20,115 nucleotides of DNA. Source: a virus. The position numbers and the translations under genes were made by a program. The stretch covers positions 1 through 20,115 of IMG/VR virus record IMGVR_UViG_3300043775_001295. One strand, 5' to 3'. A model generated the notes under the pieces. That model saw nothing but the letters and a program-made list of their open reading frames with translations. It was not told where the DNA came from and ran no database searches. Every line of letters starts with the position of its first letter. Positions within the stretch are counted from its first letter, which is position 1. This document shows positions 2,087-18,173 of this stretch, in pieces.

Positions 2087-2575
2087 ATGGCTGATTTACT
2101 AATGAAAATGCCGATTCCTTACGAACCGAAACGTCAGAACCGATTCATCTTGAGGTTTCCTTCAAGCTTGGGAATAAATGAGTGGTTCGTTGAAAGTACG
2201 AAAAGACCATCCATCAAAATTGCTTCAACAGAAATACAATTTTTAAATACATCAACATACGTTGCAGGTAGATTCAACTGGGATGAAATGACGGTTAAGT
2301 TTAGAGACCCAATTGGTCCTTCAGCTTCACAAGCTCTTATGGAGTGGGTTCGTTTACACGCTGAATCAGTAACAGGTCGTATGGGATATGCTGCGGGTTA
2401 TAAGAAAGATATTGACTTGGAGATGTTAGACCCGACAGGTGTTGTTGTTGAAAAGTGGATTCTTTATGGAACCTTCTTAACAAGCGTGGACTTCGGTTCT
2501 TTAGGATATTCAACAGACGCGTTAGCTGATATTACAGCTAGTCTTCGTCCTGACCGTTGTGTGTTAGTGTACTAA
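2087..2575 (+). CDS. Tail tube protein (T4 gp19-like)
   Basis: The product is 162 aa, against 163 aa for T4 gp19. It begins with a short hydrophobic/proline stretch (MADLLMKMPIPYEP), then KRQNRFILRFP, the RFxxxFP-type entry into the beta barrel seen in tube proteins. It continues with a beta-rich body containing FNWDEMTVKFRDPIGPSAS and a C-terminal ITASLRPDRCVLVY strand. These proteins stack as hexameric rings to form the inner tube through which DNA passes. The start is the ATG at 2087, preceded by A/T-rich sequence without a Shine-Dalgarno motif. The gene forms its own unit, with a TATTTATA element upstream and a hairpin terminator downstream. That arrangement fits a protein needed in far more copies than its neighbours. 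Confidence 0.92.
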   Translation: MADLLMKMPIPYEPKRQNRFILRFPSSLGINEWFVESTKRPSIKIASTEIQFLNTSTYVAGRFNWDEMTVKFRDPIGPSASQALMEWVRLHAESVTGRMGYAAGYKKDIDLEMLDPTGVVVEKWILYGTFLTSVDFGSLGYSTDALADITASLRPDRCVLVY

Positions 2576-2647: not shown

Positions 2648-3391
2648 ATGGAAAATCAAACATCAAATTACGCACAACAGAATTTCACATTACCTCATGA
2701 CGTAGTGCCTCTACCATCTCAAGGTACATTTTATAAAAACAAAAAGAAATCTGTTAAGGTAGGTTATTTAACCGCCACAGATGAAAATATCCTGATGGCG
2801 GGTGGAGATGATATATCTGTTAATCTAATCAGAACAAAACTTTATGAACCTGACATTAGGGTTGAAGATTTGTTGGAAGGGGATGTAGAGGCAATTCTTG
2901 TCTTTTTAAGAAACACGGCATTTGGACCTGAATTAAATGTTAATGTTACAGACCCCACAACTAGAAAACAATTTGAAGCGACGGTTGTATTAGATGAGTT
3001 AACTATAAACCAAGGACAGATTCCTTCAGATGACGGAACATTTACAACATTGTTACCAAAGTCAGGTGCTACTATTAAATTAAAACCAATGACTTACGGT
3101 GAAATTATTGAGATAAATAAAATGACTGCTCAATATCCTGTTGGAAGAGTTGCACCAAGAGTTACTTGGAGATTACAAAAACAAATTGTTGAAGTTGACG
3201 GAAATCAAGATAAAGGTGAGATAGCTAAATTTATCGAACAAATGCCGATTATGGATTCTAAATTCATAAGAAGTTTTATGGATGAAAATGAACCAAGATT
3301 AAACATGAACCGAGTAGTAACAACCCCATCAGGAGATAGACTGACAGTTAACGTCGGTTTTGGGGTGGAATTTTTTCGTCCTTTCTTCTGA
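2648..3391 (+). CDS. gp26-like baseplate / tail assembly chaperone candidate (short form)
   Basis: A 247-aa product. Residues ~17-75 (DVVPLPSQGTFY, then VGYLTATDENIL, then LLEGDVEAILVFLR) match the pattern of the T4_baseplate family that includes T4 gp26: a proline-leading LPSxGxxY, a TAxDExIL segment, a DLL.GD turn and a long central helix-strand region. The family is associated with the T4 baseplate hub. Its position directly before the tape measure gene is also where tailed phages encode G/GT-type tail assembly chaperones. The start is the ATG at 2648, two bases after a terminator T-run, with no Shine-Dalgarno sequence. It ends at TGA 3389-3391, but a second frame continues the protein for 50 residues (see 3345-3530). 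T4 gp26 is about 208 aa. Confidence 0.72.
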   Translation: MENQTSNYAQQNFTLPHDVVPLPSQGTFYKNKKKSVKVGYLTATDENILMAGGDDISVNLIRTKLYEPDIRVEDLLEGDVEAILVFLRNTAFGPELNVNVTDPTTRKQFEATVVLDELTINQGQIPSDDGTFTTLLPKSGATIKLKPMTYGEIIEINKMTAQYPVGRVAPRVTWRLQKQIVEVDGNQDKGEIAKFIEQMPIMDSKFIRSFMDENEPRLNMNRVVTTPSGDRLTVNVGFGVEFFRPFF

Positions 3392-3530
3392 TTATAGAAA
3401 AGGACAACTAGATGAATTCTTTTATTTGAATACATTATTAAATATAACATATCAAGATTTTGAAAGAATGCCCATTTTTATGAGAAAATATCTTTTAGAT
3501 AAATGGGTTGAAACTAACAAGAGGGACTAA
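3345..3530 (+). CDS. Frameshifted C-terminal extension of the gp26-like protein (candidate)
   Basis: This frame opens after a TGA at 3342-3344 and runs to the TAA at 3528-3530. It has no ATG near its 5' end; the first ATG is about 30 residues into the useful part. If ribosomes leave the upstream frame at the T6-C run (3371-3377), 50 residues are added from GTC 3378, with the sequence VLSSDYRKGQLDEFFYLN and onward through MPIFMRKYLLDKWVE. The result is a product of 293 aa (+1 shift) or 294 aa (-2 shift) in place of 247. The extension is helical, charged and protein-like. This layout, a long frame plus a short start-less frame just before the tape measure gene, is the classic gpG/gpGT arrangement. 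Alternatives are a one-base assembly error or a genuine inactivating indel in the T-run. Confidence 0.62.
   Translation, partial: QLTSVLGWNFFVLSSDYRKGQLDEFFYLNTLLNITYQDFERMPIFMRKYLLDKWVETNKRD
3371..3377 (+). promoter_or_regulatory. Candidate slippery site (T6-C) for +1 or -2 frameshifting
   Basis: Frame 0 reads GAA TTT TTT CGT here. A Phe-tRNA on TTT (3374-3376) can slip forward to TTC (3375-3377) and resume at GTC 3378. A -2 slip also keeps Phe pairing. Immediately downstream, GTCCTT (3378-3383) can pair with AAGGAC (3400-3405), with TTCT/AGAA inside. That stem starts closer to the slip site than usual stimulatory hairpins. The frame-0 stop lies four codons on. Confidence 0.5.
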
Positions 3531-3543
3531 AAAAATAGTCCTT
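3522..3543 (+). terminator. Short hairpin terminator, possible, overlapping a stop codon
   Basis: GGACTA (3524-3529) pairs with TAGTCC (3536-3541) around six A, extendable by G-T and A-T to 3522/3543. The tail is T-rich (TTCTTCTATTT) but not a pure T-run. The stem includes the stop codon of the frameshift extension. It is weaker than the other terminators here. Confidence 0.55.
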
Positions 3544-3546
3544 CTT

Positions 3547-3568: not shown

Positions 3569-5410
3569 ATGGCTGACGACAAAGAAAAACCAAGTGAATT
3601 TGGTAAAAAACTAGGTGAAGCGGTTTCTTTCGGTATCGATGAGTTTATTGATGCTGCCTCGGAAATGAAGAAAGCTGCTAACGAATTAGTTGGTGGGTTT
3701 ACTTTATCAAGAGCGAGAGTTGGTGAGATGATGACCGCTGTGAGTGAAGCTGCACCGAGATTAAAAAGACTTGGTGCTGACTTTGAAGGTACATTAAAGG
3801 TAATGAAAGACATTGCCTCAGCGACAGGTAAAAACACCTTAGCGTCGGCGGAAAGTGTTGAAAAATTGTATGCAACCACTCAAGTTATTGGTGGAGAAGT
3901 TAGTAATATTGTTAGTTCATTTACAGATGCCGGCATTCAATTCGGTGTTGTTGGAGGACAGTTGGAGGAATCAGTATTAACTGTTAGAGATTTAGGTTTA
4001 AATGCCAAAGAGGTGATGGGTCAAGTTGTTGATAACACATCAAAACTAAATAAGTTTAATTTTGAGGGAGGTGTTCAAGGATTAACAAAGATGGCAGCAA
4101 GGGCTTCACAGTTCAGGTTTGATATGAGTGAGGCGTTTAATTTAGCTGAAGACGCAATGAATCCCGAAAGAGCTGTTGAATTGGCTTCATCATTCCAAAG
4201 GTTAGGTGTTTCGGTTGGTACACTTGCGGACCCATTCGCATTGATGAATGCGTCCATTAACGACCCAGGAGCATTACAAGAAAGTTTAGTTAAAGCAAGT
4301 AAACAATTTACATACTTCGACGAAAAAACAAAATCATTCAAGATTAATCCTCAAGGAATGTTGACTCTTAGACAGTTGGCTAAGGAAACTGGTATGAGTT
4401 ATGATAACTTATCTAAATCAGGATTAGCCGCAGCGGAATTAGATAAGAGACTGTCACAAATAAGCCCAAGTTTAAACTTCAAAGACGAATCAGACAAACA
4501 GTTTTTAACTAATTTGTCTGAAATGGATGCATCAGGAAATTATGTTGTTAAGATTAGGGATGACCAAGGAATTGATTCAACAAAGAAACTTAGTGAAGTT
4601 ACACAAACAGAATTTGATAAATTAATCAAAGCACAAAAAGAACAACCTCAGTCAATGGAAGACATTGCAAGGGCTTCCATGAAGACGGGTGATATAGTTG
4701 CAAATGATGTTGCATCAATTAAAGAAGCAGTTGTAAGAGGTGCGGTATCGACATCTTTTGTTAAAGACAATATGGAGGCGTTCAGAAAGATTGTAACAAC
4801 TCCGACAGGTTCAATATCAAAAGAAGTAGCTAAAACCGACATATTCAGCACCCAATTTAATACTACCGCCAAAACAATTGAGGGAGCGGTGAATGAGATG
4901 ATAAAAACAGGTGGTAAATCTATGGGTGATATTATGAAAGACCTTGGTAGTAAATTTGGAGAGCAAGGTAAGTCAATTGGAAAAGTTGTTGAAGGACTAA
5001 GTCAAAAAATTTATTCGGACATTAAAGGAAAAAACATGAAAGTTGGTGATTCTGCATTGGGTAAGTTAGCTGCCAGTGCGTTGGAAGGTCTCGAATCATA
5101 CATTGATAAGACATCTGTGGGTAAGGCAGTAGCTGCTCAGAAAGGTGGAACAACGGTTAAAGCCTCACCATCTAAGTCATTATTCTTAGAAGGAACAGAT
5201 TCATTAACAAAAACAGCAAATCAAAACCAAACATTAACATCAACAATCAATAAGACTGTTGACTATAGTGGCACTGTTGTATTTAAAGTTGAAGCTCCCG
5301 CAGGTGTTAGTAAACAATACTTAGAACAATTCTTGAACGAAGAAAAATTCAAAGAAATGGTATACAAATATGTTGAAGAAAAAAACAAACAACTGCAAAA
5401 GACAAAGTAA
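3569..5410 (+). CDS. Tail tape measure protein (T4 gp29-like)
   Basis: The product is 613 aa; T4 gp29 is about 590 aa. It is alpha-helical, rich in Ala/Lys/Ser, and nearly free of Cys and Trp. The N-terminal ~100 residues are amphipathic helix (FGKKLGEAVSFGIDEFIDAA). The middle contains the tape-measure type block LRQLAKETGMSYDNLSK (about residues 265-282). The C-terminus ends in a short beta segment (DYSGTVVFKVEAP, ~575-588) and a charged helix (EEKFKEMVYKYVEEKNKQLQ). Tape measures fill the tube lumen during assembly and fix tail length. Using the usual ~0.15 nm per residue, 613 aa implies a tail near 90 nm, which is an inference and not a measurement. It follows the gp26-like chaperone candidate and precedes the baseplate block, in the order expected for tail modules. 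The start at 3569 is fixed by spacing to the TATTTATA element. Confidence 0.85.
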   Translation: MADDKEKPSEFGKKLGEAVSFGIDEFIDAASEMKKAANELVGGFTLSRARVGEMMTAVSEAAPRLKRLGADFEGTLKVMKDIASATGKNTLASAESVEKLYATTQVIGGEVSNIVSSFTDAGIQFGVVGGQLEESVLTVRDLGLNAKEVMGQVVDNTSKLNKFNFEGGVQGLTKMAARASQFRFDMSEAFNLAEDAMNPERAVELASSFQRLGVSVGTLADPFALMNASINDPGALQESLVKASKQFTYFDEKTKSFKINPQGMLTLRQLAKETGMSYDNLSKSGLAAAELDKRLSQISPSLNFKDESDKQFLTNLSEMDASGNYVVKIRDDQGIDSTKKLSEVTQTEFDKLIKAQKEQPQSMEDIARASMKTGDIVANDVASIKEAVVRGAVSTSFVKDNMEAFRKIVTTPTGSISKEVAKTDIFSTQFNTTAKTIEGAVNEMIKTGGKSMGDIMKDLGSKFGEQGKSIGKVVEGLSQKIYSDIKGKNMKVGDSALGKLAASALEGLESYIDKTSVGKAVAAQKGGTTVKASPSKSLFLEGTDSLTKTANQNQTLTSTINKTVDYSGTVVFKVEAPAGVSKQYLEQFLNEEKFKEMVYKYVEEKNKQLQKTK

Positions 5411-5459: not shown

Positions 5460-8400
5460 ATGGGTAGTCCATTAGATTTAGTTAATTCAGACGCGTTTAG
5501 AAAGAAACTCATTACGAGAAACTTGACCCCTTATGCTAAGGCTCCCAATAGACCTACGCCTCCATTTAATACAGAATACATACAATCAGATACATCAGTT
5601 CAAGACAGTCCTGACCAATTAATAGACGAACCATCGTTTGCTAATAAGTTATATCCATTGAATAAGTGGGGTAATGAGGGAGGGTATCAACAAGCTCCTG
5701 ACCCTGTTGGGAATACAAATACAAAATCCAACGAAGGTGAATATGGTTTCGCAGATGCTAGAATTATAGATGAGGCGGAGCCTGAATCAAAGAATTGGAG
5801 AAAAATTAATGCCTTTGGTAACGGTAGTGAGCAATTATATGACAGTGGTGAATTCGTTGGTAATTTAGAAACAATTGATGCCAACGGTAGTACAAGATAT
5901 TATAACAACCAACCATACCCAAACTTCAATCCGTCAACATACGGACCTGTTTCAATCTTATTAACACCTGACCCTCAAGGTAGTAACGGTTTGTTAAGTT
6001 CTGACTCATATCTTGCTCGTTTAGGTGCTTCAAGATTAAGAAAAGGTTTTGAAGAAAGAATTGCCACAGCGATAGTTCAACAAACTGTAGGTAGAGCCAA
6101 TGCGTTTAACGTAAGAAGTGGTACAGACGTTTTAAATTTAGTTACAGGTAGAGTTCCTTTAATTGAACCTAACTACACGATTACCGCACCATCCAACCCA
6201 ATATTAGCAGCAACAGACTTCGCATTAAGATTAGCGGGTAGTACAATACCAACATCTACAATTCCTGGTTCATACTTCGATGCAAGTATTAATTCAGGTC
6301 AACCAACAACAATACAACAATTAAGTTCTGCGTTCCTTAAAACGTCTGTCGGTAAATCATTCAGTAGATTATTGGGTGGTGACAAGACAGGTTCTCAGTT
6401 ATTCTTAAACAATACAGGTGGTGGTCAAAAGTCGAGATTATTCGGTAACATTGACTACAACAAGTATAAGCCGGATTATCAAAGAACATTATTTGATAGG
6501 GCCGCTGGTGTTTTAGTTGGTTCTACAACAAACAATAGTAACTTCTACGTAGGTTCAACAACATCCGACCCATCAAGAATATTCTCACCAGGAGGTGATA
6601 TACCGGTAAACCAATTCGGACAAGAGGTTCAATCTCCTGTTTATGGTCCAGGTGAACTTGCTGCGTTATACGAAGGTCCTGATTTGGAAAGTAAACTTGG
6701 TGCTAACGGACCTACATATAGTAACGGTGGTGGTGTTGAAGGTGGATTCACTTGGGTATCACCAAAATACAAAGACAATGCTGGTAAGTATGTTGGTATT
6801 GGTGGTGAGATTATTAGACAGGATGAAGATTTTAAACCGTCATCATACAACAAGACCGAGTCGACAAACCAAACATATAGAGAAGGTTCAATTCTTGATG
6901 ACACACAAAGACTAATTAATAGCCAACCTCAAGGAGGAAGAAGATTACAGCACGTTGGTAATGCTATCGACCAAGTTAGTAAGGTCTTCCATGATGGTTA
7001 TAGAGAGATTACGAAGGGTTCTAGAGTTCTTAAGTATATTGGTTCAATTGGACAAGAGGTGGGAACAGAGTACTGTCGTATCTTCACTAAGGACGTTCCT
7101 TATTTACAATACAATGACCTTCAGAAAAGAAACGGTATGACAACCGAAGGTAGAAAGTTTGCTTATTCAGTAATGGATAAGACATGGAATTTAAACATCT
7201 ATCCAAACAAACAAGAAGGTGGTCAAGATTCTACGAATCTTATTGGTACAACCAACAACTCTTATGCCAAGAAGTATATGTTCTCAATTGAGAATTTAGC
7301 TTGGAGAACATCTAACACACCAGGTTTTTCTGTTTCAGATTTGGCAATATGCGAAAGAGGACCTAATGGTGGTAGAGTTATGTGGTTCCCTCCATATGGT
7401 TTAACATTTACTGAAAACGTAAGTGCGAATTGGAAAAATACAGATTTTATTGGTAGACCTGAACCTGTGTATACATACAACAATACAAATAGAACGGGGA
7501 GTTTAACGTGGAAGATAGTTGTTGACCATCCTTCTGTATTAAATTTATTGGTTGATAAAGTTCTTAAAAATGAAACTAACAGACCAAGAATTGATAGTAT
7601 TATTGATTCATTCTTTGCGGGATGTAGAACATATGACTTATATGAGTTAGCCAAAAAGTACTATACAATTAATCCTAATGATTTGTTCCAATTACAACAA
7701 ATGATTTCATCTAAAGAGATGACAAAGGAACAATTAACATATGCGGTTAAAACAATTCAGCCGGGTAATACTGGAGGACAAGGGGAACTAGTTAAACAAA
7801 CTAGCGAACCTATACAAATACCAAACTCTAAAAACATCGGGTTTTATTTTGACAATGATATACCTAAAGAAGGGAATAATGTTACGAATTTTGCTGCACA
7901 ATATGCTGCGTATAGCACCAATGTTTTAAGTGGTGAATATACAAAGAAAAGCACTGCGGCGTTGACACAATCATTTTTTAATTCAGTGGTTGACCCTAAC
8001 TACAAACAAATTCAAAAATTATGTGAAGATATCGGAAACGCGTTAAAAAACAATGAGGGAACCGTTACAATAACAATCGATTCCAGTTGTTCTGCCCCTG
8101 CTAGTACGTCTTACAATGAACAATTATCCAAAAGAAGAATTAACGCAGCAATACAATATTTCACAACAAATACAAATACCGCGACATATTTTAATAGTTC
8201 ACCAAGAAGATTATTTCTTGTAGAAGGTAAAGCGTCTGGTGAAAATGCAAGTGTACAACAATATGACGCACAAGAGAAAAAATTTACAGGAGGGGCTGTG
8301 GTAAGTTGTACTGATGGTGATGCAAACGCTAAAGGTGGTGATACTCTCTCACAAACAAATAAGATTTATTCTACAACAGCAATGGCTTGTAGAAGGGCAT

Positions 8401-10529
8401 ATATCAATGTAGACACGTCAAAACTAACAGCACCACCAGCTCAACTATCTCAGTCTATAACACAACAAAAACCACAACCACAATTATCAAACGTTTTGGT
8501 AGGAACGGTTACACCTGTAACGACAACGGTTCAAACAATTGAAGAAAAGTTTGTGGAAAGAGACAATATCACAAAAAGAGTATTAAGGTCGTTGTTATCT
8601 GAGTGTAATTATTTTGAGGCAATTAAAGAAGAAACCCCAATGGTTTACGATAACTTGAAAGATAAGTTAAAGTTCTTCCAACCAGCATTTCACTCAATGA
8701 CACCTGAAGGACTGAATAGTAGATTAACTTTCTTACAACAATGTATGAGACCTGGTGATACCATCCCAACAATTAAATCAGTGGGTCAAACAAACGAATT
8801 ACAATATAACAATGCAACCAATACAGCCTTTGGGGCACCACCAGTATTAGTTTTAAGGGTTGGAGATTTTTACAACACAAAAATAATTCCAACATCATTG
8901 GCTCTCACTTATGAGGATTTGGATATTAATCCTGAAGGTATTGGTATTCAACCAATGATAGCTAACGTGACATTAGGTTTCAATTTTATTGGTGGTAGTG
9001 GATTAAAAGAATCTGTTGATAGATTACAAAACGCATTAACATTCAATTATTATGCTAATACTGAAATGTATGACGAAAGAGCCGACGCAACAGATTTAAG
9101 TTATAAAGTTATTGATAAAGCGTTCTTAAGTGCAATAGGTGCTCAACCACCTGCGGCGACTGTTAACCAAACACAAGATAACAATCCACAAACTAACGAG
9201 TCAACTATTGGTGATATATTGTCAACTTCAGGTACAACAGGTACAACAAGTTACCAAAAGTATATGGATAACCTTGTTGCACAAACTCAAACTTATTTCC
9301 AAAATTATATTAACAAGAGTAAAGAATGTGTCAAACAATATAATAACGCAATGTTACAGAATTTGACTTGTGATAGAAATTATACTAAAGGAACATTCTT
9401 GGTGGATACAACACCAGGAAAAGAAGTTTACTTAATAGGAAAACCTAACAATGTTCAACAAGTTGTTAATAATGTTTTTACTGATTATGTTGTAAACATA
9501 GAAAGCACTGACCCTAATACTCAGGATAGATTTATTAATTTCATGTCCAATAATAAAGGATTTAGTCCTAAGGTTATTAGACAATTAACAATGAACTTAA
9601 AAAACTTCGTTGTTGGTAAAACAAACACATATCAGAATGCTGTTACTCAATTAAGTCAAGAATTAGTCAACCAACAACAAACCTACATTCAATATCTTAC
9701 AAGAGCTAATGTAATGCCTCTATACAAATCAGGACCAACAACAGGTACGGATGGTTTCCAAGAAAAGAATGGTAATATTATAATTTATGATATTAGTGGA
9801 ACAACAGATGTTTATAACAAAACAGAGGCTCCCGATACCTTTGATGAGATTCAAAAAGACATTAGAAAGATTGGGCGTAATATTAGTGAGTACTATGGGT
9901 TATTAATTACCGCTAGTACAGTCGAGTATAGCTCAAAAAAATATACAGGTATTGGTTTATATGGTACTGACACAGAACAAACAACTTATGAGAAGTATTT
10001 GAAACCAATTGTATTTGTGCCATTTACTGAAGGTGATTTTGGACAAATTGTAAACAACAGTATTGGAAACCCAAGTGGTGTTGGAACACCTCAAAATTAT
10101 GCGTTTAGAAGGATGTATATGATTTTATCACCAGAAATATTGGATGATAAAAAATATCAAACCTTTAAAGATGCGATGATTAATAATATAATTAAGAATA
10201 ACGATATTCTTGGTAGTGGAAGTCAAGACGTTGCTGCACAATTTGATGCTTATTGGATTGGTACTGCCAAGCCACAATTTGCTAAAGAAAATGCTGTGAC
10301 AACTGCGTTCCTTGAAAACTTAGAAAAAGGTAAATTAAAAAACTTTATAAACTATACACCATTCCCAACTAAGAAAAGATTATTTACGTTTGAAAAATCA
10401 ACCGCACCAACGGCAAGTCAAACTGAAGTGATTACAGGATTGGGTAGAGTGTTGGCTAATTCAGACAAACAAACTTGGAACAACCAAGATAAACCATCGG
10501 CATATGTTTCAAAATTAAAACTTAATTAA
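5460..10529 (+). CDS. Giant baseplate/tail-tip structural protein with OmpA-like domain
   Basis: The product is 1689 aa with no close T4 counterpart that I can name. Residues 1-160 are low-complexity, rich in Pro, Asn and Gly. About 638-698 form a beta-rich block with GRVMWFPPYGLTF, then FIGRPEPVYTYNNTNRTGSL and VDHPSVLNLL. About 790-930 resemble an OmpA/MotB C-terminal peptidoglycan-binding domain: IGFYFDNDIP opens it, TVTITIDSS is the central strand, YNEQLSKRRINAAIQYF matches the YNxxLSxxRAxxVxxYL helix, and GKASGEN matches the terminal GxGE. About 1134-1211 hold a second block (VGDFYNTKIIPTSLALTYED, then GIQPMIANVTLGFNFIGG, then FNYYANTEMYD). I read it as a baseplate or tube-initiator type protein from context: it follows the tape measure and overlaps the gp53-like gene by one base (TAATG). 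The overall function is inferred. The OmpA-like call is motif-based and moderately confident. Confidence 0.65.
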   Translation: MGSPLDLVNSDAFRKKLITRNLTPYAKAPNRPTPPFNTEYIQSDTSVQDSPDQLIDEPSFANKLYPLNKWGNEGGYQQAPDPVGNTNTKSNEGEYGFADARIIDEAEPESKNWRKINAFGNGSEQLYDSGEFVGNLETIDANGSTRYYNNQPYPNFNPSTYGPVSILLTPDPQGSNGLLSSDSYLARLGASRLRKGFEERIATAIVQQTVGRANAFNVRSGTDVLNLVTGRVPLIEPNYTITAPSNPILAATDFALRLAGSTIPTSTIPGSYFDASINSGQPTTIQQLSSAFLKTSVGKSFSRLLGGDKTGSQLFLNNTGGGQKSRLFGNIDYNKYKPDYQRTLFDRAAGVLVGSTTNNSNFYVGSTTSDPSRIFSPGGDIPVNQFGQEVQSPVYGPGELAALYEGPDLESKLGANGPTYSNGGGVEGGFTWVSPKYKDNAGKYVGIGGEIIRQDEDFKPSSYNKTESTNQTYREGSILDDTQRLINSQPQGGRRLQHVGNAIDQVSKVFHDGYREITKGSRVLKYIGSIGQEVGTEYCRIFTKDVPYLQYNDLQKRNGMTTEGRKFAYSVMDKTWNLNIYPNKQEGGQDSTNLIGTTNNSYAKKYMFSIENLAWRTSNTPGFSVSDLAICERGPNGGRVMWFPPYGLTFTENVSANWKNTDFIGRPEPVYTYNNTNRTGSLTWKIVVDHPSVLNLLVDKVLKNETNRPRIDSIIDSFFAGCRTYDLYELAKKYYTINPNDLFQLQQMISSKEMTKEQLTYAVKTIQPGNTGGQGELVKQTSEPIQIPNSKNIGFYFDNDIPKEGNNVTNFAAQYAAYSTNVLSGEYTKKSTAALTQSFFNSVVDPNYKQIQKLCEDIGNALKNNEGTVTITIDSSCSAPASTSYNEQLSKRRINAAIQYFTTNTNTATYFNSSPRRLFLVEGKASGENASVQQYDAQEKKFTGGAVVSCTDGDANAKGGDTLSQTNKIYSTTAMACRRAYINVDTSKLTAPPAQLSQSITQQKPQPQLSNVLVGTVTPVTTTVQTIEEKFVERDNITKRVLRSLLSECNYFEAIKEETPMVYDNLKDKLKFFQPAFHSMTPEGLNSRLTFLQQCMRPGDTIPTIKSVGQTNELQYNNATNTAFGAPPVLVLRVGDFYNTKIIPTSLALTYEDLDINPEGIGIQPMIANVTLGFNFIGGSGLKESVDRLQNALTFNYYANTEMYDERADATDLSYKVIDKAFLSAIGAQPPAATVNQTQDNNPQTNESTIGDILSTSGTTGTTSYQKYMDNLVAQTQTYFQNYINKSKECVKQYNNAMLQNLTCDRNYTKGTFLVDTTPGKEVYLIGKPNNVQQVVNNVFTDYVVNIESTDPNTQDRFINFMSNNKGFSPKVIRQLTMNLKNFVVGKTNTYQNAVTQLSQELVNQQQTYIQYLTRANVMPLYKSGPTTGTDGFQEKNGNIIIYDISGTTDVYNKTEAPDTFDEIQKDIRKIGRNISEYYGLLITASTVEYSSKKYTGIGLYGTDTEQTTYEKYLKPIVFVPFTEGDFGQIVNNSIGNPSGVGTPQNYAFRRMYMILSPEILDDKKYQTFKDAMINNIIKNNDILGSGSQDVAAQFDAYWIGTAKPQFAKENAVTTAFLENLEKGKLKNFINYTPFPTKKRLFTFEKSTAPTASQTEVITGLGRVLANSDKQTWNNQDKPSAYVSKLKLN

Positions 10530-10852
10530 TGGCGTATCCATATTATAATCGATATAGTGAATTCATCATTAATGGTGAACAAACTGTCGTGCCATTTGTT
10601 AACATTGCTCAAAAGCCTACAGACCAAACATTTATCTACAAAGTTGCAAGAAGTAGATTAGATAAAGTTTCTCAAGAATTTTATAACTCTCCATATTTCA
10701 GTTGGTTGATATTACAAGCAAATCCTCAATTTGGTGGGTTAGAAGATAATATTTATGACGGTGCAGTATTGATTATTCCATTTCCGCTCATAGCTTCTTT
10801 ACAGGATTATAAAGCGGCATTAGAAAATCATTTTTATTATTATGGCAGGTAA
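10529..10852 (+). CDS. Baseplate wedge protein, gp53/LysM-like
   Basis: The product is 107 aa. Residues ~35-86 follow the LysM-like pattern of gp53-type baseplate proteins: FIYKVARSRLDKVSQEFYN, then FSWLILQANPQFG, then a final DGAVLIIPFP, corresponding to YxVxxGDxLxxIAxxxYG, WxxIxxAN and GxxLxIP. T4 gp53 is longer (about 196 aa), so this is a compact version. In contractile tails this protein joins wedges in the inner baseplate; the LysM fold here is structural and does not by itself imply cell-wall binding. The ATG overlaps the previous stop by one base, and its end overlaps the next gene by 11 nt. This indicates translational coupling within the block 5460-18173. No internal promoter is visible. 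Confidence 0.75.
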   Translation: MAYPYYNRYSEFIINGEQTVVPFVNIAQKPTDQTFIYKVARSRLDKVSQEFYNSPYFSWLILQANPQFGGLEDNIYDGAVLIIPFPLIASLQDYKAALENHFYYYGR

Positions 10853-13800
10853 TTTACAAGCTGACAACAGCGGAAACATATTGGTGGATTTTGACTATAA
10901 TAATATTATTGTAGTCGACCCTAACAAAACAATCGACAATTTTGGTAACATTAGAGAAAGATTAGTTGACCATGAGAATTTGGTTATGTATGCCAATCTT
11001 GAAGCTGAGGTTGTACCAAGAACAAAATTAGCGGTGGGCGGAAGTCCTGAAGATAGAATTAGAACTATATCTGTTGCTAAAATTAATTTTCTAAAACCAA
11101 CAAAAAATACCTACTTAGGGACGGGTTATTATGATGAGTTAACTGGACAAAACTCCACTAAGTTTCAGGGTGTTAATCAACCCAAACAAACCTTGAATCA
11201 AACTGCGGATGGTAAAGAGTCTTATAAGGTTAATAGTGTTGCAGACCAAACGAACGTAATTGACACTGGATTACTTGGTATGACAAGTATTAGTATTAGA
11301 ACAAGTACGTCATTTATTCCAAGTGTATCAATCACATTAGAAGATGTACAAGGTAAAGCGTTATTTCAATTGGGTAATAACTCACCGTATGCCGCATTTT
11401 TTAATTTGCCATATTGTCCGTTCTATTTAACACTGAAAGGTTATTATGGACAAGCAATTAGATACCAATTAAATCTTGAAAAATTTAGTGCTTCATTTAA
11501 TAGTTATAGTGGTAACTACATTGTTAACTTAGAATTTAAAGGATATAAATTCAATATCTTAAATGAGATTTCTTTTGGTCATTTACTTGCAGCTCCACAC
11601 ATGTATTCTCAAAGATTTCAAATTACGCAATCTCCGACTGAGGGACAAAATGCCAATGAATCGAAAGACACATCCACAGCTGGTAAATCTGGTATTGGTA
11701 CAACAAGTACAACAAATGTAACATCAGAAATAGTTGCCGAAAGGGGTTATCAAAAAGTTGTTGAAGTTTACAGTGAATACAAGGCCAAAGGATTAGTTTC
11801 AAGAGATTTTCCTGAGTTAACGGTTCAGCAATTGATGAATAAATTGGATAATTTTGAACAAGCTATTGTCAATTCCTATCAAAAGGCTAATGTCGAACCA
11901 CTTACGAATATTCGAAACTATCAACAAAAACTTAAAGATTATTTTGCTAATGTAAGAGGTGCCGACTCTTCTTGGTTCAATACATATTGTGATGTTAGAC
12001 CAATTTATTTAAAAGATAAACCGTCGGTTGTTTATGCATACAAAGCCAATTTAGACCAATCAGCAATATCTGAGGCAAATACTAAACTATCTGACTTAGT
12101 TGCAAGATACAATATTGGATTGGCTGAAAACCCAACATTGGGAAAGGCCGGAACTTCACCAATCGCAAATCCAATTAAGTATGATGATTTTTTCAGAACA
12201 ATTGTTTATTCGAATATTGATTGGATAGAAACAACAAGGTCACAAACAGGTATTATTGCTCCCACAGAAGAAGATGTAAAATTGGTTCAAGACAGACTAT
12301 CTAAATTTTTTAAAGTGTCGTTCGAACTAAATATATTTTCTACTATTCCAATACCCAAAGAAATTGTATTACCTAAATTCTTAGTATTTGAAGGAGACAA
12401 AGGTTTCGATAAAACTCTTGCTAACATGGAGACTCAAGCTAATGCAAAACTTGCTGAGATTGAGGGATTGTTGTCTGCAGACTTGGCTAGAAAGATAGAA
12501 GACAAAGCAACAGGTTTGGGTTTCAGACCTACGGTAAGAAACATTATTGCGGTATTAATGGCCTCTTCAGAGGCGTTTATTAGGTTGTTAGATGATGTTC
12601 ATACAAATGCGTGGAATGTCAAATACGACCCCATCAGAAAGAATGCCATATTAGATAACCCATCATCAGCGCAAAGTTCCGATAGTAGAGATGATGTTAA
12701 AATATCTACAAATGCACAAGAATCGAATCAGGGGTTATCCACATCTCAGATACCGGTGTACCCATGGCCACAATTTTTTGTTGAAACACCTGAAGATAAA
12801 AAAGGAAGATTCCAACTAAAATATATTGCCGACCCATCTGTTGTTAATCTAACAAAAGGTTATTTGTATGAAAAATGGCCTGAGGTTGAATTTGTTGAGG
12901 AGTATATGAAAGGGTTAACACAAAAGTTTCAAAATCCATTAAGTCAACCTTCCTTGGACGCGGAATCAACAACAATAATAAATAATGTAAATGCTATTGA
13001 GTTTCCGAACGTGGGAATTGCTTACGTGAATAAAGAAGAAATAAAGTTCTTTTATGAAATTTGGGAAAGACAATATCTTACATCTTTTTATTCGGGATAT
13101 GTTAGGTTGTTAGGTAACAACAACGGAAGTGATGTGTTTGCTGAATATACAATGGCTGCCGAATCTCAAAACATAAAACTAAGTTTAGGTGCAAGTTCGC
13201 CATACCTTAATTTAAAATTAAAGAATTTAAATTTAAATTCCGCAAACTATGTTAGTACGTTAGAAACAATTTCAAATCAGGGTACAGGTAGAGCTTATCA
13301 AGATTTCATTAGAGATTTTTATGTGACACCGTATATTAAAACTTTGACAGAATCACCATTTTCAATTTTAAAATTGAATGAAACTGGTAAGATTCCTAAA
13401 GAACCTATAGTATCCGAGGCTCTTCAACAAATTGTAACATCTCCTTATAACACACCAATGTTATTGGACACCTATCCGTTTACAGACGGAACATGGTGTT
13501 TCAAAAATATGGATAACTCAGCGGCAAATACAAATGAGTTAGTTTATAATACAAACAAAACGTATAAAATTTACTCGGAAAATAAGGTTATTGCTAACTT
13601 TGATACTTTAACAGATTATACAACAAATAGACCTGTAACAAACTTTTCTTATTTGAGTGTAAGTAATCCATCAGATGGTCGTACCAATGTTAATCTAAAC
13701 GAATTTTACGCCACAAGAGAAACAAAAAACTTTATACCAACCGAAGGATATTGTTATTTCCCATCACCAAACACTACTTTTGAAACTCAAACAACAACCT

Positions 13801-16800
13801 CAATATTAAACACACCGTATTTTATAAATGCAATTCAAAATGGTGTTAATAATTCAAGAAAGTCTGACCCATATCCTTATGTTCAGGCGGCTTATTTGTT
13901 TATTAATTCACTACCATTGGCGTCTACAAGAGAAAGATATAAGACATATTCACAAGGACAAACTACTGACTTGGATTATATTGCTTCAGTATTCAAAAAA
14001 TTTGGTGCGATACATAAAGTACCATATGTTTGGGTTTTAAAAATGGGTTCTATTTGGCACAGATATAAAAAACATGTTGAAACAAATGTAGATATTTTAG
14101 ATTCGTGTTGGAAAGAGTTTGATTATGTTGTTAACTACGACCCAATAACAAATGATATAAACCATAAGTATAGTTACGAAATAACTGTTAATGGAAAAAA
14201 AGAAGAACAAAATATTGTTTTACAAAACGAAACCACAACAAGTATTAAAATACAAAACGGATTTTATCCTAAGTTAGTTAACGACTTCAACGTATTTTAT
14301 AATGGGTATGAATTATATCAAACTTACAGTGACAAAGAAATACAGGCTAGTTTAACTAATGGAATGAAATTATTTTCATTATCACAAGGTTCTATTTCGG
14401 GTGTAAAACAAAAAACAAAAGACCTTATAGTTGAACCTTTCAGTGTGGTTATTCCACATTTGATTGATGATTCATCTAAAAATCAATCTGTTTGTGTACC
14501 TGCCAACAATACTAAAGGTGGTGAGTATTATGTAATACCATCATTTGGAAACACGGTGAATCAAACTGCTACACAATGTATTAATACAATAGGTAATACC
14601 ATTGTTGATTTAACATACAATCAATCAATGTATAACGGAAGTGTTAGATTATTATGGTCAGCACCAAACTACGGATATTTTGATTCTTTATCAATTCGTA
14701 AACCATCACCTGATTCTTACTTGAACTACATTAATCCTGAAAGAGCAATACAGGCACCAATGAGACTACTCTCGGGAAATACGTATTCTAAAATTGAAGA
14801 GATTTTCTCTGTGTTTGATAAATCAATTTTGAATCAATTTGAACAAGAGTTCCTGAATTTTTGTAAACCAATTAGTACGTTAGATGCTGCCCTCTCAGTA
14901 GTTGGAATTGGACAAAGCCCAATTGATATAAACGCCAACTTCAAAAACTTCCAATCGTTTATGAGAATCGCCATGACGGTTCCATCACAAACGACATCAG
15001 AACAAAACGACCAATATTTTCAAAATACAATTAATAGTCAAGCTCAAGTTTTTTGTTCAAACATAAAGAACTTCATGGAGTATGATGTTATCTTAAGAAA
15101 TGGTAACCCCGGAAATTACAATAGAAGAATATTTGGCTCTTTTCTTGGCACCGCAACCGACCCAATTAGATACGAACCATATGTCAAAAATAGTTTACCA
15201 ACATTAAGTGGTGGAATAACATTATCACAAAGTAAAGCAAAGTATCCACTTGAATGGGTGGCATTACAAACAACCGTAGGATTCTCAACAATTGCCAATT
15301 TAGAATATTCAGATAAAGGTTCTTATATTACTGACTTCTTTGTTGATAACAATATGTTATTTAGTGTACCAAACATTAATTTATATTCTGAGTTGATAAA
15401 AATATATGCAACGAGAAAATTATTAAATCCGACAATCACAACAGGAAATTTTAGAACACAAATACAAAACTTCATTTCTAATGGTACTAGCCTACAAAAT
15501 ATAGTTTTAAATAGAACATTAGAATCACTTAGAAAAAACTTAGAAGGGTATTCTCAATTACCTGAAAGAACAATTCAATCAGTTATTGACGGACAACAAT
15601 CTAAAGTTGAAAACTACGAGGTATTCAAAGCTCTTAATGATAAATGGGTTGCTGGTGGTGACTACAAAACAAAAACATTGTTTGAGGATATGATGTTCTT
15701 AGACAGAGCATCAAGAAATATCGGAGATACAATTATCATTGATATATTTGACCTTCAATCAATGTTGGGTAAAAATGCATATAGTGAGTCAATGAGTGTC
15801 TTTACACTTATAAGTGGAATTTTAATCAAAAATAATTTTACGGTAATGCCTCTTCCGGCTTATGTGAATTTTTATAATGTACAAGATGTTTCAGGGATTA
15901 ACATACCACAAAAAACTCAAGGTTCACTTGAGTTTGCGAATAGTATGTGGGGGACATATTTGAATGTGGATTACAGAAACTCAGGTCCAAAAATGATTTG
16001 TTTTTATGCAGGTAAACCATCACAATATTTGGATTTACCAAAAGGTAATTTCAGATTTAGGGACGATAGTTTTGAAATGAAGAGAGCCTCTGAGAATCCA
16101 TTGATTGAAGACCTAAAAGACAAAAAAGATTTTGGACTATCAAACAGATGTGTTGGGTTTAATGTGGAAATAGGAACAAGAAATCAAAATGTGTTTTATT
16201 CATTCTCGGTTTCACAAGATGCGGGAAAGGCTACATCTGAGGCAATTAACGCACAATTGAATATGATTGACCAAGCGTCAGGTAGAAATGTTGCGACTCA
16301 AAATGTTAGTTTGTATAATCTATACAAAAATAGAAGTTATACTTGTACGATACAATGTCTAGGTAATGCCTTATTACAACCAACAATGTATTTCAACTTA
16401 CAACATGTACCCATGTTCAACGGGCCATACATGATTACGGACATTTCACATAATATTACACCAGGTAATTTTGAGACAACTATTACAGGTGTTAGACAAG
16501 GTATTTTTGATTTACCGGCAATTGATAGTTTCTTACAAAGTATTAATCAAAATCTTTTAACCAAGATTGAACAAGCGGTTCTTAATAAAAAAGATGCAAC
16601 GCCAACACCTGGTGCAACAACAGACCAAAGTAAGGCTGCTAAAATTATACAGGAGGCTAAGAGTGAACGAGAGGACCAAAATACTTGTAGTAATAAATTA
16701 AATCCGATATACACAGAACAAGGTTGGGCGTCAACAACAACAACTGCAACACCACTTTCAGAACAACTGTTTAAAGATGCTATTGTTAAAAAGACGTCCG

Positions 16801-18173
16801 ATTCGTATCTTCAAACAATAATATACACTATATGTTATGTTAGAGTACGTCAAGGGACTAAAGATACAAATTCTTTTGTTGGGTTCAATAATAACTTTGC
16901 AACTGTAACCTTGGATATAGATTATGTTAATAACAACATATATTTTAATCAAACACCTAGAACATATTCTTGTGTGAATGTTCAATCAGGAACCGCAACA
17001 AATGTTAAAAATATATTACCTATTGCTAATTTCTCAGATATAAATAAGTTTTTAGATTTTATGATTTCTAAGTTGACTCCGAACATTCAAAGAATAACAC
17101 AAATTGGATTACCAAAATACTATGTTTGTTATTGGCCAACAACAAACTTTACAGAAGAATATTACGAAACTAAAAAGGGTACCGAGTTCAAGGCGGTAAT
17201 AGCTAATTTCGAATCAGCAATTAAGTCCGCAATAAGTTTGGGATTATCTGACTTAACTGGTACTTATGAACCACCACTTACACCAACAATTTCTGCGACC
17301 ATTGGCTCAACTCCAACTGCAACAAGTTCTGTTACACCAACACCTACACCTACTGTGGGTACAATACCATCACCAACACCTACACCAACCTCTTGTGAAA
17401 AACCTGTTATTATTTCATTTACACCAACTTTTGGTGGACAGAATACTATTTTGACTATTACAGGAAAATACTTACAATCGACAACCTCAATCACTATAAA
17501 CAATGTGATTGTAACTAAAGGAATTACTAAATCAAATGACGGAACTCAACTTACGGTCACTGTTCCTCAAAGTCAATCAACAAGTGTACAATCCAATACC
17601 ATACTCGTAAAAACTCAAAATGGCGATGTAACAAGTACAAATAAGTTCACGTATGACCCTGCGTCAAAAACAACAAGTGCTTCTGCTGCACCGTTGAATA
17701 CAACTAACGTAAGTCAACAAACACAAACAGATATCGCAACTAGCACAAGTTCAACAAGACAAGATGGACAAGCGGGTCCTAAAGTTCTATTAGAAACTGA
17801 AACTAATGGATTGAAGGGTATGGAGAAATTGGTTATATCAATCAATCCAGAAACTACTGGTTGGAGATTAAACCCACAAGCAGACTTAAAACTTCTTCTA
17901 GTAACAAATAAAAGAGGACCAAATAATACTCGAATACAAAGTAAAAGTGATATTAAGAAAACTGCATTACCAGGATATGTTACGGATAATTTACAAGAAT
18001 TCGAAATTGATAATGTTAACGTTATTAATATCGCTTTAGATTACTTTACTCAGGAAGAATTAGATGCGGCAGCATATCTTACCGGACAAGTTGATGTTAT
18101 TGCTACTTCACTTAACGGAAACAATCCTCAAACATATTATACAGCGTCATTCGTAATCTATTTTAACACTTAA
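10842..18173 (+). CDS. Giant baseplate hub-type protein with Pro/Thr linker and IPT/TIG domain
   Basis: The product is 2443 aa, the largest gene in the window. About 145-250 form a conserved-looking beta domain (TSISIRTSTSFIPSVSITL, then DVQGKALFQLGNNSPYAAFF, LTLKGYYGQAIRY, FNSYSGNYIVNLEFKGYKF). About 1821-1895 resemble the terminal barrel of hub proteins such as T4 gp27 and late-control D: TCTIQCLGNALLQPTMYF, then FNGPYMITDISHNITPGNF, then TTITGVRQG. About 1973-2107 contain FVGFNNNFATVTLD and PIANFSDINKFLDFM, reminiscent of a glucosaminidase/lysozyme-like fold, but no ESG-type catalytic Glu is visible. About 2145-2185 are a Thr/Pro/Ser linker. About 2186-2276 match an IPT/TIG immunoglobulin-like domain (PVIISFTPTFGGQNTILTIT, then FTY). 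The last ~150 residues are unassigned. The gene overlaps the gp53-like gene by 11 nt. Hub function is inferred; the possibility that it is a fused hub, fibre and adhesin is open. Confidence 0.65.
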   Translation: MAGNLQADNSGNILVDFDYNNIIVVDPNKTIDNFGNIRERLVDHENLVMYANLEAEVVPRTKLAVGGSPEDRIRTISVAKINFLKPTKNTYLGTGYYDELTGQNSTKFQGVNQPKQTLNQTADGKESYKVNSVADQTNVIDTGLLGMTSISIRTSTSFIPSVSITLEDVQGKALFQLGNNSPYAAFFNLPYCPFYLTLKGYYGQAIRYQLNLEKFSASFNSYSGNYIVNLEFKGYKFNILNEISFGHLLAAPHMYSQRFQITQSPTEGQNANESKDTSTAGKSGIGTTSTTNVTSEIVAERGYQKVVEVYSEYKAKGLVSRDFPELTVQQLMNKLDNFEQAIVNSYQKANVEPLTNIRNYQQKLKDYFANVRGADSSWFNTYCDVRPIYLKDKPSVVYAYKANLDQSAISEANTKLSDLVARYNIGLAENPTLGKAGTSPIANPIKYDDFFRTIVYSNIDWIETTRSQTGIIAPTEEDVKLVQDRLSKFFKVSFELNIFSTIPIPKEIVLPKFLVFEGDKGFDKTLANMETQANAKLAEIEGLLSADLARKIEDKATGLGFRPTVRNIIAVLMASSEAFIRLLDDVHTNAWNVKYDPIRKNAILDNPSSAQSSDSRDDVKISTNAQESNQGLSTSQIPVYPWPQFFVETPEDKKGRFQLKYIADPSVVNLTKGYLYEKWPEVEFVEEYMKGLTQKFQNPLSQPSLDAESTTIINNVNAIEFPNVGIAYVNKEEIKFFYEIWERQYLTSFYSGYVRLLGNNNGSDVFAEYTMAAESQNIKLSLGASSPYLNLKLKNLNLNSANYVSTLETISNQGTGRAYQDFIRDFYVTPYIKTLTESPFSILKLNETGKIPKEPIVSEALQQIVTSPYNTPMLLDTYPFTDGTWCFKNMDNSAANTNELVYNTNKTYKIYSENKVIANFDTLTDYTTNRPVTNFSYLSVSNPSDGRTNVNLNEFYATRETKNFIPTEGYCYFPSPNTTFETQTTTSILNTPYFINAIQNGVNNSRKSDPYPYVQAAYLFINSLPLASTRERYKTYSQGQTTDLDYIASVFKKFGAIHKVPYVWVLKMGSIWHRYKKHVETNVDILDSCWKEFDYVVNYDPITNDINHKYSYEITVNGKKEEQNIVLQNETTTSIKIQNGFYPKLVNDFNVFYNGYELYQTYSDKEIQASLTNGMKLFSLSQGSISGVKQKTKDLIVEPFSVVIPHLIDDSSKNQSVCVPANNTKGGEYYVIPSFGNTVNQTATQCINTIGNTIVDLTYNQSMYNGSVRLLWSAPNYGYFDSLSIRKPSPDSYLNYINPERAIQAPMRLLSGNTYSKIEEIFSVFDKSILNQFEQEFLNFCKPISTLDAALSVVGIGQSPIDINANFKNFQSFMRIAMTVPSQTTSEQNDQYFQNTINSQAQVFCSNIKNFMEYDVILRNGNPGNYNRRIFGSFLGTATDPIRYEPYVKNSLPTLSGGITLSQSKAKYPLEWVALQTTVGFSTIANLEYSDKGSYITDFFVDNNMLFSVPNINLYSELIKIYATRKLLNPTITTGNFRTQIQNFISNGTSLQNIVLNRTLESLRKNLEGYSQLPERTIQSVIDGQQSKVENYEVFKALNDKWVAGGDYKTKTLFEDMMFLDRASRNIGDTIIIDIFDLQSMLGKNAYSESMSVFTLISGILIKNNFTVMPLPAYVNFYNVQDVSGINIPQKTQGSLEFANSMWGTYLNVDYRNSGPKMICFYAGKPSQYLDLPKGNFRFRDDSFEMKRASENPLIEDLKDKKDFGLSNRCVGFNVEIGTRNQNVFYSFSVSQDAGKATSEAINAQLNMIDQASGRNVATQNVSLYNLYKNRSYTCTIQCLGNALLQPTMYFNLQHVPMFNGPYMITDISHNITPGNFETTITGVRQGIFDLPAIDSFLQSINQNLLTKIEQAVLNKKDATPTPGATTDQSKAAKIIQEAKSEREDQNTCSNKLNPIYTEQGWASTTTTATPLSEQLFKDAIVKKTSDSYLQTIIYTICYVRVRQGTKDTNSFVGFNNNFATVTLDIDYVNNNIYFNQTPRTYSCVNVQSGTATNVKNILPIANFSDINKFLDFMISKLTPNIQRITQIGLPKYYVCYWPTTNFTEEYYETKKGTEFKAVIANFESAIKSAISLGLSDLTGTYEPPLTPTISATIGSTPTATSSVTPTPTPTVGTIPSPTPTPTSCEKPVIISFTPTFGGQNTILTITGKYLQSTTSITINNVIVTKGITKSNDGTQLTVTVPQSQSTSVQSNTILVKTQNGDVTSTNKFTYDPASKTTSASAAPLNTTNVSQQTQTDIATSTSSTRQDGQAGPKVLLETETNGLKGMEKLVISINPETTGWRLNPQADLKLLLVTNKRGPNNTRIQSKSDIKKTALPGYVTDNLQEFEIDNVNVINIALDYFTQEELDAAAYLTGQVDVIATSLNGNNPQTYYTASFVIYFNT
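17334..17391 (+). repeat. Pro/Thr-coding degenerate tandem repeat
   Basis: Imperfect repeats of ACACCNAC-type units (ACACCAACACCTACACCTAC, then again after a short gap) encode TPTPTPT and SPTPTPT. They form the flexible linker just before the IPT/TIG domain of the 2443-aa protein. Such a tract may vary in length by slippage. Confidence 0.75.

Follow-up and report, generated by a model that had tools for sequence, protein, structure and literature searches.

The tail gene region of the window, by which we mean the whole 20,115-nucleotide stretch of viral DNA analysed here (IMG/VR record IMGVR_UViG_3300043775_001295), very probably encodes a tail assembly chaperone (TAC) in two forms, the longer of which would arise by a +1 ribosomal frameshift linked to an upstream mRNA hairpin. 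Two conserved coding frames, entry into the +1 frame at the slip, a UUU_C slip site with a rare codon and a conserved hairpin are all present in the sequence, and from these we infer the occurrence of the shift, its rate, its stimulation by the hairpin and the roles of both proteins. The parts of the locus are listed below with the evidence for each.

2087..2575, + strand: tail tube protein gene (phrog_4542, E 5e-25)
2648..3391, + strand: ORF0, encoding TAC-N, the 247-aa short form of a tail assembly chaperone of the gp26/gp51 family (PF12322, phrog_150, AF2 model)
3323..3328, + strand: 5′ arm ACCCCA of hairpin helix P1 (partner 3361–3366; C-G to A-U covariation)
3329..3337, + strand: 5′ bulge with conserved UCAGGAR (TC and GG invariant across the alignment; GGA codon in 191/194)
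3338..3345, + strand: 5′ arm of hairpin helix P2 (single positions show as many as six standard pair types; 0/500 shuffles)
3346..3352, + strand: hairpin loop (window and relatives folded)
3353..3360, + strand: 3′ arm of hairpin helix P2 (same pairing evidence as its 5′ arm)
3361..3366, + strand: 3′ arm TGGGGT of hairpin helix P1 (ends 7 nt 5′ of the P-site codon; GGG codon in 48/48)
3374..3377, + strand: slip site UUU_C (TTT then C in every junction tallied)
3377..3379, + strand: putative slow A-site codon CGT (CGN in relatives, CTC once)
3378..3530, + strand: TAC-C, the +1-frame extension, 50 residues and TAA (pN/pS, three-helix model, hhalign)
3569..5410, + strand: tape measure protein gene, 613 aa (PF10145 at E 2e-4, below cut-off, and position)

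A chaperone gene before the tape measure gene

The first-pass annotation had described a gp26-like frame ending at 3391 and placed it before the tape measure gene, following the gpG/gpGT rule. Both points are borne out, as ORF0 runs from 2648 to a TGA stop at 3389–3391 and the gene order of tube (2087–2575), TAC (2648–3530) and tape measure (3569–5410) is the one expected of a TAC; the same order is found in LIS04 and in Mel-JY01/SP-15. The tape measure gene is a putative one, assigned from its position and the sub-threshold PF10145 match, and annotated tape measure genes are likewise placed in immuto and LIS04. ORF0 matches PF12322 above the cut-off (E 8e-7), as do both gp26 and gp51 of T4, and on the strength of this family match it is homologous to the T4-type TACs. 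It also matches phrog_150 (E 7e-12), a match that rises from 46.4 to 49.7 bits when ORF0 is fused to the extension, with the profile end moving from 232 to 252 of 282. Comparison of profiles with the single T4 gp26 and gp51 sequences in hhalign was uninformative.

TAC-N and TAC-C were modelled separately, as the two natural frames. The AF2 model of TAC-N (pLDDT 85) resembles T4-type hub/chaperone models in BFVD, and a Foldseek search of TAC-N against the PDB gave no meaningful match. For TAC-C three helices were predicted (pLDDT 88), in keeping with the helical extension of about 50 residues that had been proposed beyond the shift; its matches in BFVD were all weak, one of them being named tail assembly chaperone (E 1.7). 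In hhalign the extension matches the extensions of the immuto group and other relatives with an E-value of 5e-11, and because it is homologous to those of related phages, we take the locus to encode both TAC-N (247 aa) and the fused TAC-NC (293 aa).

Selection on both frames

The +1 frame at 3345–3530 had been called start-less. It is open as described, but the term does not hold strictly, as a TTG lies in the +1 frame at 3360. A run of 46 stop-free codons past the ORF0 stop is found by chance in 0.7 % of shuffles of this one region, and the window alone is therefore weak evidence; it is conservation that makes the sequence evidence for the +1 frame decisive. Among 80 IMG/VR relatives read, with identities down to 49 %, the split is kept except for two cuts at contig ends and one deletion, and it is kept in about 200 distinct relatives overall, many of them added by further protein-based and pattern-based scans. 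The extension contains no stops in the +1 frame across 48 distinct fused sequences and has a pN/pS of 0.39 there (0.37 for ORF0), whereas the other frames over the extension give 0.94 and 1.28 with 3.7–5.5 stops per sequence; judged by these values, the extension is under purifying selection in the +1 frame only. A scan by DNA pattern, made without reference to reading frame, gave 112 distinct junctions, all of them in this gene and with the extension open. Judged by its sequence, the locus has the conserved out-of-frame C-terminal domain, apparently joined by frameshifting, that is expected of a TAC. The deletion concerns L051 (3590–3610), in which 148 nt present in the otherwise nearly identical L035 are missing, removing the junction and fusing the frames, and probably represents an assembly join or artefact.

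The split could in principle also stem from RNA polymerase slippage on the T run (transcriptional realignment), from a sequencing error or from gene decay. Transcriptional slippage would be served by the six consecutive T, but the relatives with TTCTTTC retain the split with only three; an error or decay is countered by the agreement of many contigs and by purifying selection on both frames. As seven other IMG/VR contigs have the same junction, and as 190 of 196 distinct junctions carry T6 and the remainder TTCTTT, a read error is not the source of the six T, and we regard this whole group of explanations as extremely improbable.

A separately initiated or reinitiated small gene would agree with public annotation, which shows the extension as a separate small CDS in immuto and Mel-JY01, and with the TTG at 3360 in the window. 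This TTG is not conserved, however: of the distinct relatives, 5 in a set of 48 and 7 in a set of 104 lack any ATG, GTG or TTG codon in the +1 frame 5′ of the extension, no start codon is conserved, and the conserved LSS codons right after the slip precede the ORF0 stop. Independent initiation is thus very improbable.

Direction of the shift

A programmed frameshift at T6-C (3371–3377, phase TTT TTT CGT), as proposed at first reading, is supported by the conserved junction together with the conserved extension. The homologue comparison suggested there was run, and the relatives retain the split at the slippery run with the same frame relation in 196 distinct junctions. Throughout the clade the junction reads TTY-TTT-C, the second Phe codon being TTT and the next base C at every site, in scans that permitted TTC at the second Phe codon.

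The direction had been left as +1 or −2. A −2 shift at UUUUUU, as in Mu-like phages, would yield a product in the same frame, and T6 would let the tRNA re-pair two bases back; in the six relatives with TTCTTTC, however, it would put tRNA-Phe on UCU, and re-pairing fails in these TTCTTTCG variants. Under a −2 shift, moreover, there would be no need for UUU as the second Phe codon or for the C after it, yet neither of them varies. With −2 excluded by the six relatives, and its residual chance accordingly slight, +1 is left. Re-pairing of the P-site tRNA from UUU to UUC is possible at all sites, and of the two codons UUC is the better partner for tRNA-Phe(GAA). A −1 shift at an X XXY YYZ heptamer is at odds with the extension, which is in the +1 frame, and with the −1 frame, which runs for six codons before it closes.

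Upstream of the slip, codons are unconstrained in the +1 frame, where GTN and GAN vary and some relatives (L008, L021) even have a +1-frame TAG just 5′ of the slip. Downstream, the third positions of the post-slip codons CCT and TTC, which are second positions of the +1 frame, are fixed in 48 of 48 sequences. Since +1-frame codons are free 5′ and fixed 3′ of the slip, it is here that reading passes into the +1 frame. The ORF0 stop varies among relatives in kind (TGA, TAA or TAG) and in place, and therefore lies outside the signal; no downstream stimulatory structure was found (z −0.3 to −0.6). We consider the sequence evidence for a +1 skip very strong.

Two elements of the site had been overlooked by the first-pass annotation, namely the rare A-site codon and the conserved upstream hairpin. 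The A-site codon is CGN in 48 of 48 sequences, although these ORFs otherwise encode Arg mainly by AGA, and CGN also among the tallied relatives with a single CTC. CGC and CGG make up 60 % of the site codons in the 196-site set, whereas a 165-kb relative uses them for only 11 of its 1575 Arg codons; the excess may come in part from a +1 frame that favours Gly, Ala or Val at this point. Going by the rarity of CGN in the ORFs of the clade and in the 165-kb relative, the A-site codon would be a slow one. The relative G003 (L292) has 22 tRNA genes, among them those for Arg(ACG), Arg(TCT) and Phe(GAA), which are the tRNAs relevant to the slip site.

A covarying hairpin 5′ of the slip

Directly 5′ of the slip lies a conserved two-helix hairpin (3323–3366). 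In helix P1, codon 226 is xCC in 190 of 194 sites and the Gly codon is GGG in 194 of 194 (and in all 48 of the protein-based set), both being minority choices elsewhere in these ORFs, and the CCCC/GGGG stem appears in the minimum-energy fold of 65 of 66 representatives (z −2.4 versus synonymous resampling). A scan for GGH in place of GGG yielded TACs with GGTG, which is paired with upstream CACC (or CGCC). On a protein tree leaving out both hairpin arms, the swap from CCCC/GGGG to CACC/GGTG occurred in at least two supported lineages; for P1 the tree gave only 2–4 independent pairs, a number too small to support a sign test. GGGG was first considered as a Shine-Dalgarno sequence, a reading dropped once the CACC/GGTG compensation was seen.

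Helix P2 stacks on P1 across the 9-nt bulge with its conserved UCAGGAR. Several P2 pairs occur as three to six standard pair types, and none of 500 shuffles matches the observed pairing. For 57 sequences less than 78 % identical, the covariation score is 0.279 versus 0.189 ± 0.009 in shuffled alignments (0/500) and at most 0.138 in slid ones, the shuffle counts overstating significance because the sequences are related. P2 pairs in 74 % of cells and is present in the best fold of 39 of 73 representatives, and the pairs −49/−4 and −50/−3, which would close the gap between P1 and the P-site codon, form only partly (57 % and 78 %). A covariance model locates the element with certainty once in the window and once in the 165-kb relative, with the next match at E 0.027, and a search of Rfam over 3319–3385 gave no match in the element up to E 1.

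A stable helix just 5′ of the slip is what a refolding upstream hairpin calls for, here with P1 ending 7 nt 5′ of the P-site codon, farther than the 3 nt of the prfB Shine-Dalgarno sequence; this gap is the main caveat for a stimulatory role. Considering its conservation and the analogy with engineered hairpins described below, the element probably stimulates the +1 shift. Since a sister +1 group lacks such upstream structure (z −0.3), +1 shifting in TAC genes does not as a rule depend on the hairpin.

Frameshift and hairpin may both be real while the hairpin serves RNA stability or transcription, or while GGGG acts as an internal Shine-Dalgarno sequence. We consider this unlikely, though deserving of attention. 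GGGGU can pair with the anti-Shine-Dalgarno sequence with one G-U, and the bulge UCAGGAG looks Shine-Dalgarno-like; the GGTG variants, however, still pair with upstream CACC, and Shine-Dalgarno motifs are not enriched in the genes of the 165-kb relative (6 of 140 versus 4.2 expected). Against another role of the hairpin speak its constant distance to the slip in 194 in-register sites and the single occurrence of the element in the 165-kb genome.

Proposed mechanism and relation to known recoding sites

In the model favoured here, most ribosomes would read ORF0 and stop at 3389, giving TAC-N, while a fraction would slip one base forward when UUU (3374–3376) occupies the P site and the rare CGU waits in the A site, tRNA-Phe re-pairing from UUU (G-U wobble) to UUC (exact). 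Reading would resume at GUC 3378 and produce TAC-NC with its 50-residue helical TAC-C domain. If the two forms act like lambda gpG/gpGT, TAC-N would coat the tape measure protein, whereas TAC-C would recruit tube subunits. The hairpin would be unwound by the ribosome and refold in the mRNA exit region, favouring forward over backward movement and doing the job of the Shine-Dalgarno duplex in prfB. We find it reasonably likely that a natural covarying hairpin refolding behind the ribosome replaces the Shine-Dalgarno duplex as +1 stimulator across a large T4-like clade, probably in Bacteroidota hosts that hardly use Shine-Dalgarno sequences. Such a host, probably Shine-Dalgarno-blind, is suggested by the 30 % GC of the 165-kb relative, by its genes without Shine-Dalgarno enrichment, by its A-rich start contexts, as in Bacteroidia, and by the cultured phages found by similarity, which include Flavobacterium phages; a search for relatives in GTDB genomes found none, and the host was not identified directly. 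In Bacteroidia the prfB +1 site is retained even though these bacteria seldom use Shine-Dalgarno sequences (PMC8710568), and engineered refolding upstream hairpins raise +1 and lower −1 shifting in yeast, in E. coli 70S lysate and also at hungry codons (PMC3639245, PMC6321510).

TAC frameshifting is known from lambda gpG/gpGT and as a general rule (Xu 2004), and a review names T4 as an exception among long-tailed phages (PMC5009743). The present locus shares with lambda the gene right before the tape measure, a short and a frameshifted long form and a small C-terminal domain, but has a +1 instead of a −1 shift, no X XXY YYZ heptamer and an upstream hairpin. The first-pass statement that gp26-type proteins are not textbook carriers has been overtaken, as T4-like TAC genes were identified in 2022 (Vladimirov 2022, PMID 34826709, as quoted in passages of PMC10885494 and PMC12846349). 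According to these quotations, some T4-like phages have separate short and long TAC genes, and the poly-T TAC sites cited for T4-like phages in the PMC12846349 passage are −1. As far as quoted there, those genes belong to the same gp26/gp51 family; unlike them, the site described here is +1 at UUU_C and belongs to a large uncultured clade.

In prfB (RF2), too, a P-site slip to a matching +1 codon is combined with a slow A site and an upstream duplex. Where prfB has an internal Shine-Dalgarno sequence about 3 nt before the P codon and an in-frame UGA in the A site, however, the TAC site has a helix arm and the sense codon CGN, the duplex being a hairpin instead of a Shine-Dalgarno:anti-Shine-Dalgarno pairing, and no feedback is visible. 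The engineered refolding hairpins (PMC3639245, PMC6321510) likewise combine a +1 site whose A-site codon is hungry with a GC-rich stem immediately 5′ of it; in yeast the site tested was CUU CGG C (PMC3639245). Those hairpins are constructs, whereas the element described here is natural, covarying and found in phage genomes.

Related phages provide further +1 extensions, at [CT]UU_UGG in immuto-type Flavobacterium phages, TTT TTT TGG in Mel-JY01 and RM378, TTT CAC in SP-15 and TTC TTT CGT in GXN1. These loci resemble ours in having a +1 extension at [CT]UU_UGG or UUU_C, that of the immuto group being homologous; a conserved upstream hairpin was not found in the immuto group (z −0.3), and a search of IMG/VR for relatives of LR756508 returned none. 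Arrangements for −1 at T-runs occur in a Synechococcus, a Rhizobium and a Xanthomonas phage and in one uncultured jumbo phage, and the TAC family therefore uses both directions. In the Synechococcus phage (L377, 1899–2090) the annotation gives the −1 extension its own gene, “baseplate hub assembly catalyst” (gp51), which is probably also a TAC-C part.

TAC frameshifts, T4-like TAC genes and, in the passage of PMC12846349 concerned, poly-T −1 sites in them were already known. New here is a probable +1 TAC frameshift with an upstream hairpin, as opposed to the known −1 ones including those of T4-like phages; in the literature searched, which left the full text of PMID 34826709 outside its scope, we came across neither a +1 site in a T4-like TAC gene nor, in phages, a natural +1 signal that uses an upstream hairpin. 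Contrary to the exception made for T4 in the review, a large T4-like clade would have TAC frameshifting, and in the rarer +1 direction. Its three separable parts, hairpin, UUU_C slip and rare A-site codon, would offer a natural system for the question posed with engineered constructs, namely whether 70S ribosomes can be moved forward by an mRNA hairpin in place of Shine-Dalgarno pairing. Annotators miss TAC-NC, even in cultured phages of Flavobacterium and Microcystis, where the extension is entered as a hypothetical gene of its own, and the +1 TAC loci of immuto, Mel-JY01 and related phages are not annotated as frameshifts.

Neighbouring features

Between the sheath and tube genes, a 304-aa protein (1078–1992) without a match in Pfam carries a YAFDWDDNI motif and looks HAD-phosphatase-like by eye. 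Two very large, structural-looking proteins are encoded further downstream, one of 2443 aa (10842–18173) without a Pfam match and one of 1689 aa (5460–10529) with a weak OmpA-like match. A strong terminator-like hairpin with a T8 tail (2609–2637) ends about 10 nt 5′ of the TAC start codon and could reduce expression of the TAC and tape measure genes relative to the tube protein. A second terminator-like hairpin (3519–3546) overlaps the end of the extension between the TAC and tape measure genes, and L035 has a similar one.
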